Source: a virus. Taken from it: a DNA stretch of 20,489 bases. The notes beneath the pieces were generated by a model. That model was not told where the DNA came from and did not search any database. It saw only the letters and a list, made by a program, of their open reading frames with translations. This document shows, piece after piece, positions 8,639 through 13,829 of this stretch; positions within the stretch are counted from its first letter, which is position 1; each line of letters starts with the position of its first letter. The stretch covers positions 1 to 20,489 of the IMG/VR virus record IMGVR_UViG_3300020466_000079; one strand, 5' to 3'. The translations under genes were made by a program, and so were the position numbers.

Positions 8639-8967
8639 CACTCGTGGGTGACGACGAGGCTCTCGATGACATCTGGGCAGATTGGATGGCAGAAGAGGGT
8701 TTAGAGATCGAAGAAGAAATCGAAATCACTCTTTTAGAATCTCGTGGCACCCTCGACATGCAAGACGGCACTCATGCTCAATGGTTAAATGGTGACCTTG
8801 GGGTGCTATTTACTTTTAGTCCCGAAGAAGTTTCTGATATAATTGACGCTTGGGATGACGCTGTTGGAGGCAACCTGTTGGCCTTGACCAGTTTGATGAA
8901 CTGGCTTCAAGGCTTTACAGCTTTTCTTAATACTTGTGTCAACGCAAAGTCAAACTTGGAAGATTAG
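8635..8967 (+). CDS. Hypothetical acidic protein (110 aa), last gene of the rightward block
   Basis: The chosen GTG overlaps the holin stop (GTGA), typical of translational coupling; a second in-frame GTG at 8644 is possible, and longer extensions would run through the holin gene. Residues 5-35 are highly acidic (DDEALDDIWADWMAEE). The middle region SPEEVSDIIDAWDD and a Leu-rich C-terminal helix suggest a small globular protein. No membrane segment is clear and I recognise no family. Its stop TAG overlaps the stop of the converging - strand gene by 4 bases. It could be a lysis accessory protein, but nothing in the sequence shows this. Confidence 0.65.
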   Translation: MTLVGDDEALDDIWADWMAEEGLEIEEEIEITLLESRGTLDMQDGTHAQWLNGDLGVLFTFSPEEVSDIIDAWDDAVGGNLLALTSLMNWLQGFTAFLNTCVNAKSNLED

Positions 8968-9404
8968 TCTTTGAGTTTTTTCCACACAGCTTCATGCTGA
9001 AGGAGATTATGACGGACTTTAGCTGCAAGCTCATCTCTTCTGCGTGCCAACGTAGTCTTAGGGATGTCTAATACCTTTGCGACGAAACGCAGAGATAAGC
9101 CAACATCTACAAGCATGTGGTATAGCCATTGTTCATCGTCGCTTAAAGAGTCAAAGACTTCTTCAACGGCATCTATTAAATCCCCTTCATCTCTATAGAC
9201 GCTTTCCCAAGAAGCAGAAGGTTCCTCGAAAGGGGCGGCGCTCATAAGAGCTTCCGCCTCTGTTTCTGGAATGTGGTAGAGCCTTACGGCTCGATACCAT
9301 TCTGTGTCAGTTACCGCTACTCGCGACCTTTGCGGTCGCAGTGACGGAAACTTGTAATCTTTTAACGCTTGAAAGAATGCTTCAGGATCAAATTTGTCAT
9401 CCAT
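8964..9404 (-). CDS. HTH protein resembling sigma-70 region 4 (146 aa), putative transcription regulator
   Basis: Residues about 80-130 (AVEEVFDSLSDDEQWLYHM, then GLSLRFVAKVLDIPKTTLAR) have the layout of a sigma region 4 helix-turn-helix: a run of hydrophobic positions, GLSLRFVAKVLDI as the first helix and turn, and PKTTLARRRDEL as the recognition helix. The N-terminal 70 residues are unassigned and I see no region 2 promoter-melting domain, so it is more likely a regulator or DNA-binding protein than a full sigma factor. It is the last gene of the leftward replication operon and overlaps its upstream neighbour by 8 bases (ATGGATGA). Phages often use such proteins to activate late genes; that role here is inference. 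A small terminase-like protein is an alternative. Confidence 0.7.
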   Translation of the reverse strand: MDDKFDPEAFFQALKDYKFPSLRPQRSRVAVTDTEWYRAVRLYHIPETEAEALMSAAPFEEPSASWESVYRDEGDLIDAVEEVFDSLSDDEQWLYHMLVDVGLSLRFVAKVLDIPKTTLARRRDELAAKVRHNLLQHEAVWKKLKD

Positions 9405-12047: not shown

Positions 12048-12770
12048 TTAAGAATGAAGCTCCTCGCGACGGGCCAACCAGTCCCATTCAACTGCGTCAT
12101 CCTTCGTCTGGCCTGCGGCCTGATCGAATACAGTCAATGGAACGTTGCTGTCCCCTTCGTTGACCCAAACGCCAAAGTCTTGATTGACGTTGATTCCTAT
12201 GCGAGAAAGCGCATCCTTACCAATGGAGAAATTAGGGTAGTTAGTCCCACGGTTGGTTTGATCAGTTGTGCCGTCAGCTTTTTCTTTGACTTTGTACACT
12301 TCGATCAAACTGCCGTCATCATCTCGCCATTCGCTAGGCTGGAACGCTATAAGGTTCCATGCCGCTTGGCGGATGTCAGCTTGTTTCCCAACGCAGAGAG
12401 GGACTCGCTTGTAAACACGACCAGTCACTTTTCCTCCTGCTGGAGCGGAAGCTTTCGGTCGTGTTGGAGCGCTACTCTCAGCAGCTTCCGCTGCGGGAGC
12501 GGAGGGCTTACTACCATCAGGCCTGGAAACGCCGCTTTTCAAGCGACGCATCACGACCCCATCAGGAGTAAGATCTATTTCTTGTCCTGATTGTTTGAGC
12601 ACTTCGCTCTTTACTTGTTCAAACATGGAAGTTGCTTCAGCAATGATGCCTTCATCTCCCATTGATTCGGGAACACTGCGCTCTATGGAGAGCGAGTAGT
12701 CCGCTGTTTCGTACGGGGCTTCGCTCACTTTTTGAGTGAAGCTCACCGTAACTCTTGCATTTTCTGTCAT
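12048..12770 (-). CDS. Conserved-looking hypothetical protein of the replication operon (240 aa)
   Basis: The start is well set by GGGAGG 7 bases before the ATG. Residues 1-75 look like a compact alpha/beta domain (RVTVSFTQKVSE, YSLSIERS, then an amphipathic helix MFEQVKSEVLKQSG). Residues 80-112 are an Ala/Pro/Ser-rich linker. Residues 113-240 form a second domain with GKQADIRQAAWNLIAFQPSEW and a Trp-rich acidic end (DDAVEWDWLARREE). Acidic, aromatic C-terminal tails occur in single-stranded DNA-binding proteins, and the place between a recombination nuclease and the helicase would fit a DNA-binding partner. I do not see an OB-fold signature, so I leave the function unassigned. Confidence 0.7.
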   Translation of the reverse strand: MTENARVTVSFTQKVSEAPYETADYSLSIERSVPESMGDEGIIAEATSMFEQVKSEVLKQSGQEIDLTPDGVVMRRLKSGVSRPDGSKPSAPAAEAAESSAPTRPKASAPAGGKVTGRVYKRVPLCVGKQADIRQAAWNLIAFQPSEWRDDDGSLIEVYKVKEKADGTTDQTNRGTNYPNFSIGKDALSRIGINVNQDFGVWVNEGDSNVPLTVFDQAAGQTKDDAVEWDWLARREELHS

Positions 12771-12864
12771 ATGTCATCCTCCCTTTGGATGTTATTTCCA
12801 ACAGATCATTTTACATCGTACCAGAAACGGCCCACGGCACAAACTAGCAGATAGTGAACGTTTC

Positions 12865-13630: not shown

Positions 13631-13696
13631 CTTCTCCCTGCGTTATGGGTGATGCCCTAAGCGCGGGGAGAAGTCACGCCTAGGGCATCTCCCTAG
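13631..13696 (-). promoter_or_regulatory. Structured mRNA leader with a possible Shine-Dalgarno-sequestering switch
   Basis: On the - strand the Shine-Dalgarno region CGCAGGGAGAAG (13642-13631) pairs with CTTCTCCCCGCG (13673-13662) at 11 of 12 positions. The pairing partner lies in the loop of a 9-bp stem, GATGCCCTA (13689-13681) with TAGGGCATC (13659-13651), so the two together could form a pseudoknot. A third helix, CTAGGG/CCCTAG (13696-13691 with 13685-13680), competes with the 9-bp stem. Mutually exclusive helices of this sort are typical of translational switches. The regulated gene would be the Cas4-like nuclease and perhaps the whole operon. No ligand or known riboswitch class is recognised. 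Confidence 0.5.
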
Positions 13697-13705
13697 ATCT
13701 AGTTT

Positions 13706-13734
13706 CGGGGGAACCCCCTGAAGGGGTTCCCCCG
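13706..13734. other. Perfect 12-bp-stem hairpin, terminator-like without U-tract
   Basis: CGGGGGAACCCC pairs perfectly with GGGGTTCCCCCG around a 5-base loop. There is no T-run on either strand right after the stem, so intrinsic termination is doubtful. It lies between the terminator of one leftward operon and the leader of the next, and would be near the 5' end of the replication-operon mRNA if the weak promoter at 13736-13764 is used. Confidence 0.6.
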
Positions 13735-13735
13735 A

Positions 13736-13764
13736 ATCCTACAGGTAAGATTACAAAAAAACAA
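13736..13764 (-). promoter_or_regulatory. Weak candidate promoter for the replication operon
   Basis: On the - strand TTGTTT (13764-13759) and TAGGAT (13741-13736) are separated by 17 bases. The match to the sigma-70 consensus is moderate, and the place is right: after the terminator at 13783-13812 and before the operon's first gene. Transcription would begin close to the strong hairpin at 13706-13734. Confidence 0.3.
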
Positions 13765-13782: not shown

Positions 13783-13812
13783 AAAAAAAAGACCCCCACC
13801 CGAAGGTGGGGG
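13783..13812 (-). terminator. Intrinsic terminator of the 18.7-13.8 kb leftward operon
   Basis: On the - strand CCCCCACC, a TTCG tetraloop and GGTGGGGG form an 8-bp GC-rich stem, followed after two bases by eight T residues. It stands 20 bases after the last gene of the operon. This is a textbook Rho-independent terminator. A copy of the 17-bp palindrome abuts its upstream side. Confidence 0.9.
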
Positions 13813-13829
13813 CTGTGGAATTTCCACAA
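13813..13829. repeat. Palindrome copy 1 (CTGTGGAATTTCCACAA)
   Basis: The 15-bp core is perfect; the first outer base is C instead of T. It lies between the last stop of the operon and its terminator, directly against the terminator stem, so in the RNA it precedes the hairpin. Confidence 0.9.

Follow-up and report, generated by a model that had tools for sequence, protein, structure and literature searches.

A Pseudoknot Capturing the Shine–Dalgarno Sequence in the Leader of a Phage Nuclease Gene: A Putative Translational Gate at the Head of a Replication Operon

Introduction

The H-type pseudoknot that sequesters a Shine–Dalgarno (SD) sequence is a known structural kind. In the preQ1-I and SAM/SAH riboswitches, the loop of a hairpin pairs with the downstream SD, the two helices being coaxially arranged, and translation initiation is controlled (PMC11625349, PMC7367207). 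In phages, the leader of gene 32 in T4, T2, and RB69 harbors a pseudoknot 67 nt upstream of the start codon, where the binding of protein across an A+U-rich ribosome binding site is nucleated; according to a 2010 review of T4, gene 32 may be alone among viral genes in using a pseudoknot for translational autoregulation (PMC3014915). The ribosome binding sites of the T4 genes e, soc, 49, and I-TevI are closed by a cis structure as well, in which the SD or the AUG lies in an RNA helix, not in a pseudoknot, and which takes part in the switching between early and late transcripts (PMC3014915). Lastly, the STAXI, manA, and wcaG motifs are structured RNAs discovered in metagenomes; STAXI pseudoknots lie near the genes for SSB and other DNA-handling proteins, and manA and wcaG occur in cyanophages (PMC2864571). 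No phage counterpart of an SD-containing leader pseudoknot was found in the open-licence literature, so an earlier description is possible.

Here, we analyze the leader of a Cas4/RecB-like nuclease gene in a 20.5-kb virus record (20,489 nt; the whole stretch is hereafter referred to as the window), for which a preliminary description had proposed a translational switch.

Results

Organization of the Locus and Predicted Promoter

The replication operon of the window lies on the − strand and includes, after the leader, the genes coding for the nuclease, a 240-aa protein, a DnaB-like helicase, an AEP-type primase, and RusA (Table 1), which agrees with the placement of the leader at the head of a replication operon in the preliminary description. 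A terminator-like hairpin ends the upstream operon; the leader is thus set apart as its own transcription unit. The 240-aa protein could be assigned to no family and gave no match to solved structures and no useful fold match; hence, the idea that it might be an RNA-binding protein or an SSB was dropped. Between the nuclease gene and that of the 240-aa protein there are about 95 nt (12771–12864), in which TACGAT may serve as a promoter and the SD, AGGGAGG, is open; many relatives have only about 18 nt there. The last gene of the operon (8964–9404, − strand) shows a weak likeness to a sigma-factor/HTH family (PHROG 1740, E 2.6e-4), and its product is possibly a later-stage transcription regulator.

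Transcription is predicted to start at about 13729, from the −35-like and −10-like elements listed in Table 1; in sister families, TTGACT or TTGACG occupies the −35 place, 16–17 nt before TAAAAT or TATAAT. The predicted start lies upstream, not downstream, of position 13660, and the resulting 5' UTR of about 100 nt takes in everything previously described. In nearly every leader family, a palindrome starts where the −10 box ends (offset −6 to +5), with arm sequences that are unrelated between families. In the window, this palindrome (13704–13736) could act as a 5' mRNA hairpin, a DNA operator, or both.

Two relatives sit in metagenome-assembled genomes (MAGs) named Actinomycetota and Acidimicrobiaceae, and whiB is present in six related phage records, the seventh match being the bacterial MAG. 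These data suggest that an actinobacterial (aquatic) host is likely for the phage group of the window, albeit not proven for this phage itself.

Table 1. Coordinates of the leader elements and of the neighboring genes in the window, in the order of transcription.
Feature	Position	Strand	Remarks
Terminator-like hairpin of the upstream operon	13792..13813	-	
−35-like element TTGTTT	13759..13764	-	weak match (3/6), 17-nt spacer to −10
−10-like element TAGGAT	13736..13741	-	TATAAT or TAAAAT in other leader families
Near-perfect G/C-rich inverted repeat TTCGGGGGAACCCC-ttcag-GGGGTTCCCCCGAA	13704..13736	-	spans the expected transcript start
P1 5' arm: outer GGG 13693-13691; inner GATGCCCTAGGCGTG 13689-13675	13675..13693	-	fold; compensatory changes in relatives
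Anti-SD CUUCUCCC in the P1 loop (P2 5' strand)	13666..13673	-	sole loop segment kept across 14 families
P1 3' arm: inner CGCGCTTAGGGCATC 13665-13651; outer CCC 13649-13647	13647..13665	-	
Linker crossing P1, ACCCATAACGCA	13639..13650	-	12 nt with the outer P1 pairs open, else 8 nt
SD region GGGAGAAG (P2 3' strand)	13631..13638	-	
Gated gene: PD-(D/E)XK (Cas4/RecB-like) nuclease, 254 aa	12865..13629	-	GTG start (13629); Pfam PDDEXK_1 E 5.3e-10; PHROG exonuclease
240-aa protein, next gene after the nuclease	12048..12770	-	syntenic in nuclease-bearing loci whose sequence extends there

Structure of the Leader

In the minimum-energy fold, the first helix (P1) consists of 15 continuous pairs, G.U pairs included, between the inner parts of the two arms (13689–13675 with 13665–13651); past one A.A mismatch, three outer G-C pairs bring the hairpin to 18 bp in total (13693–13647). 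P1 alone amounts to −32.2 kcal/mol, and the fold of the 121-nt leader has a z of −3.35 versus shuffles. The perfect 9-bp stem GATGCCCTA/TAGGGCATC that had been reported is present, although it is only a part of the helix, which runs further inward to 15 pairs.

The loop of P1 is 9 nt long (ACUUCUCCC) and includes CUUCUCCC, which forms eight contiguous Watson–Crick pairs with GGGAGAAG (P2). The complementarity between the loop and the downstream sequence thus occurs in an order and a geometry suitable for an H-type pseudoknot made of P1 and P2, with a loop 1 of 1 nt, abutting helices, and the SD inside the pseudoknot helix. The segments previously paired with each other, CGCAGGGAGAAG (13642–13631) and CTTCTCCCCGCG (13673–13662), had been located and read correctly, and they do match at 11 out of 12 positions (mismatch A13639/C13665); however, only 8 bp can coexist with the stem, the three extra pairs past the A.C mismatch taking CGC bases that belong to P1. 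The lengths of the loop and of the linker in the window fall within a rough reach filter for H-type pseudoknots (pseudoknot penalties left out), which is not independent support, the same filter having been used in the structure search itself.

When the upstream 100 nt were dinucleotide-shuffled, keeping the SD and the start, 2 of 3,000 shuffles passed the pseudoknot criterion given below, so the sequence of the window by itself is suggestive, not proof. No comparable pseudoknot was found before the other ORFs of the window, the next-best score being 46 versus 74.5 for the nuclease leader. The search of Rfam at the gathering threshold did not retrieve any match from the window, 13 relatives of its own group, or 12 loci of the two other groups described below, and at E ≤ 10 the leader returned sub-threshold noise only; accordingly, the leader belongs to no known Rfam class, in line with the preliminary description, which had recognized none.

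Distribution of the Pseudoknot in Related Phages

At least 80 viral loci encode relatives of the nuclease, and their leaders have a common order, i.e., −10 box, palindrome, hairpin with a UCUCC-bearing loop, SD, and start. A leader was counted as positive if it had a hairpin score of at least 28 and a contiguous Watson–Crick loop–SD helix scoring at least 15 and overlapping an SD located 3–13 nt before the start of an ORF no shorter than 60 aa. Of the 1,833 SD-preceded ORFs in 771 kb of DNA from related phages, 67 passed this criterion, and all 67 code for this nuclease (one of them, L089, being the only one with CPEK instead of CPEQ); none of the other SD-preceded ORFs, about 1,766, did so. 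The loci are redundant and the 67 leaders, which represent about 14–17 families at 80% identity, are not 67 independent events. The families share the same topology with stems of unrelated sequence, the nuclease identity across them being about 60% or more.

Across families, P1 measures 10–19 bp and the linker 5–23 nt, inserted hairpins vary, and the loop and linker lengths fall within the rough reach filter. The calculated energy of P2 is −12 to −22 kcal/mol in every family, without pseudoknot penalties, and exceeds that of the SD:16S pairing (−8 to −11 kcal/mol for an assumed 16S tail). In L035-type leaders, the best partner of the loop is an upstream duplicate of the SD. The pseudoknot was not found in L007/L015 and in most of the deep outgroups.

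In the nuclease tree, the pseudoknot leaders, except for three "weak" ones in outgroups, fall in one fully supported clade of 31, and the tree can be explained by a single gain, on a branch with full support, and a single loss (L007/L015). The outgroups without the pseudoknot that were inspected (L070, L079, L103, L109, L117, and L119–L127) mostly have, by eye, a −10-like box 5–7 nt before the ATG and no SD, and their nuclease mRNAs are probably leaderless. There would thus be little for a knot to hide, and the loss side fits. Several of them have nevertheless retained the palindrome upstream and a hairpin whose loop carries CUCC. No consistent partner in cis could be identified for these loops in the SD-less leaders, and the loop may thus play a different or more ancient role.

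Covariation and Conservation

The loop–SD helix was compared with those obtained by swapping partners among 14 family representatives. The own helix scored 20.1 versus a swapped mean of 17.1 (sd 0.67), and 3 out of 100,000 permutations scored as high as the own partners; a generic anti-SD is thus ruled out as the whole explanation. Since the core of P2 (UCUCC/GGAGA, 5 bp) is invariant, the covariation evidence for this helix comes from its flanks only, that is, C-G/U-A at +4, U-A/C-G/G-U at −2, and C-G/U-A/A-U at −3; in L051, P2 extends to 12 bp, and among the close relatives of the window it is invariant.

As for P1, three pairs changed on both sides in the window's own family (MAFFT alignment), a result matched by 34 of 500 shuffles and weak alone, whereas in family A6, with three P1 pairs and one P2 pair changed on both sides, none of 500 shuffles reached the covariation score. 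Moreover, among the variable pairs of P1, there are 14 occurrences of G.U and one of A.C (p = 0.0005). Substitutions that leave G.U rather than A.C argue for an RNA of mRNA sense under selection. Compensatory changes, on which the preliminary description had made its proposal depend, are thus present in the homologous leaders, both in P1 and in the P2 flanks.

Outside the anti-SD/SD core and the adjoining bases, the information content of the 14 families is near background, and no conserved unpaired nucleotide was found. No alternative helix is conserved either. The third helix previously described, CTAGGG/CCCTAG (13696–13691/13685–13680), exists, but it is weak (−7.7 versus −32.2 kcal/mol for P1) and by eye was not seen in the other leader families; an upstream GGAGA able to pair with the anti-SD occurs in 2 of 14 families only, so that no anti-anti-SD is conserved. 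Switching via an alternative helix was discarded on these grounds. A metabolite riboswitch or a helix-swapping switch is thus unlikely, and of the architectures that had been suggested, neither the alternating helices nor the riboswitch, of whose aptamer there is no sign, held up; with so little conserved outside the core, the candidates are a gate that needs no ligand or a protein that recognises shape. The H-type pseudoknot over the SD of the Cas4-like gene, by contrast, is supported by sequence comparison, with a loop–SD helix kept in relatives, and the case for it is stronger than originally put.

Recurrence in Two Further Phage Groups

IMG/VR was searched with two pattern scans for identical 8-nt arms. 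The first one (TTCTCCCT...AGGGAGAA...ATG) retrieved 84 matches, with a P1 score of at least 36 in 15 of them and of at most 22 in the rest. Five of the high-scoring matches correspond to this nuclease and ten to a second phage group (L278–L357), in which the leader precedes a primase/helicase gene (AAA_25; PHROG primase/helicase). Among the relatives of the second group, the criterion is passed by 52 out of 993 SD-preceded ORFs. According to the listing, they comprise the primase/helicase, other ORFs occupying its position (a PAPS-reductase-like one in four loci and a further ORF in L317), and one ORF after the primase. The partner swap gave 117 out of 20,000 permutations in this group. In L281, L299, L300, and L352, the PAPS-reductase-like gene lies between the leader and the primase gene, so that it is now this gene that follows the leader. 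A candidate pseudoknot leader was also observed before a 196-aa ORF (VAKRQRVPKGKTSR...) located after the primase gene in L278 (4852–4964), and the same candidate occurs in L279, L281–L283, L294, L301, and L355.

Among the matches listed for the second scan, a third group (L478–L557) carries the leader before the gene of a Cas4-family exonuclease, which has no detectable similarity to the nuclease of the window. Here, P1 changed on both sides in five out of nine pairs, with a covariation score of 0.335 versus 0.166 in shuffles (0/500). The loop UUYGGCUAUCUCCUUU is almost invariant, and its part UUYGGCUA is unexplained by SD pairing; the conservation of loop letters beyond the anti-SD makes a protein or another ligand more plausible in the third group.

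The follow-ups were picked for their outstanding P1 score, and these results thus demonstrate recurrence, not frequency. As to cultured phages, a small check by annotation and by eye of 11 hand-picked, named ones whose exonuclease or primase genes are related did not reveal the same leader; in several of them, the upstream gene runs up to or over the start codon.

Discussion

The leader described here is similar to the preQ1-I and SAM/SAH riboswitches in the pairing of a hairpin loop with the downstream SD, in the arrangement of the helices, and, as far as the phage gate can be judged from its structure, in the control of translation initiation (PMC11625349, PMC7367207). It differs from them in that it has neither a covariance-model match in Rfam nor conserved aptamer nucleotides outside the helices; P1 is much longer and free in sequence, and the genes downstream are replication genes, not metabolic ones. 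With the gene 32 leader it shares a phage replication gene, a leader pseudoknot, and putatively translational control; in gene 32, however, the pseudoknot lies well upstream of the ribosome binding site and is followed by an unstructured A+U-rich stretch, whereas here the pseudoknot helix itself holds the SD (PMC3014915). The likeness to T4 e, soc, 49, and I-TevI is limited to the closing of a phage ribosome binding site in cis, the early/late transcript switching belonging to the T4 genes and not to this leader. As for STAXI, manA, and wcaG, the structures are different, and no Rfam model matched at the gathering threshold. The comparison points to an undescribed form, the putative phage nuclease gate, of a known structural kind.

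On the evidence of the sequences, the structure is encoded, conserved, selected as a sense-strand RNA, and tied to the nuclease gene in these phages. We consider it probable (about 0.7) that the leader acts as a cis-acting translational gate on this gene, with a default state that is off or low. The early transcript would start at about 13729, and P1 would fold on being transcribed, displaying CUUCUCCC in its loop; the emerging SD would then be captured by the loop through the 8 bp of P2, and the resulting H-type pseudoknot would bar 30S subunits from the start codon of the nuclease. The default state would be closed because P1 would form before the SD is transcribed. We infer that the pseudoknot represses translation initiation and that the gate is ligand-free or recognised by its shape, rather than a metabolite switch; candidate openers, if any, are competition by ribosomes, an RNA-binding protein of the phage or the host, and cleavage of P1 by an RNase. 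The gate would serve to keep down or postpone, in early infection, a nuclease that is potentially harmful.

A possible alternative, which we hold to be rather doubtful, is an autogenous or phage-protein operator, in which the pseudoknot is a binding site and is locked or opened by the nuclease, the 240-aa protein, or some other protein of replication. The leader heads a replication operon, T4 gp32 offers a phage precedent by binding a leader pseudoknot on its own mRNA (PMC3014915), and a protein that reads shape needs no conserved sequence. Nevertheless, a sequence-reading protein would find no conserved unpaired nucleotides, despite a nuclease identity of about 60% or more, and no RNA-binding fold can be recognised in the 240-aa protein. 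Less probable still is a processing switch, in which RNase III would cut the long P1 and detach the anti-SD, turning translation on. RNase III cuts T7 and lambda early mRNAs, and a long near-perfect duplex of free sequence should be tolerable to it, which would account for the presence of P1 without sequence conservation; in several families, though, P1 has only 10–13 bp, which is short for efficient cleavage.

Two further explanations appear very unlikely. A metabolite riboswitch like preQ1-I or SAM/SAH would share the H-type topology and the placement of the SD on the 3' side of the pseudoknot helix; opposed to this reading are the absence of any Rfam riboswitch at the gathering threshold in the window and 13 relatives, the failure to find conserved aptamer nucleotides, the variable P1 (10–19 bp) and linker (5–23 nt), and the nature of the gated genes, which are DNA-replication genes. 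Similarly disfavored is a DNA-level element, with the inverted repeats acting as a replication origin or a repressor operator and an incidental match to the SD. The region does head a replication operon, and a separate G/C-rich palindrome sits at the predicted promoter in nearly every family, which may itself be a DNA element; yet neither the 14:1 excess of G.U over A.C mismatches of P1 in the mRNA sense nor the preference of the loop for its own SD above permuted partners is to be expected for DNA.

Conclusions

The kind of pseudoknot in which the SD lies inside the knot is backed by many independent leaders in one phage group and recurs in two others. Whether these leaders represent a widespread undescribed class of phage RNA, namely SD-capturing loop pseudoknots defined by topology, gating replication or recombination genes and with at least three independent origins in unrelated phage groups, is in our opinion an evenly balanced matter. 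Since the leader sequence is nearly free, Rfam-type model searches would miss such gates, which may thus be common in phages. The leader families represent a natural set of tuned SD-gating modules, and the leader of the window makes it possible to test directly how a DNA-degrading enzyme is timed or kept in check by phages.
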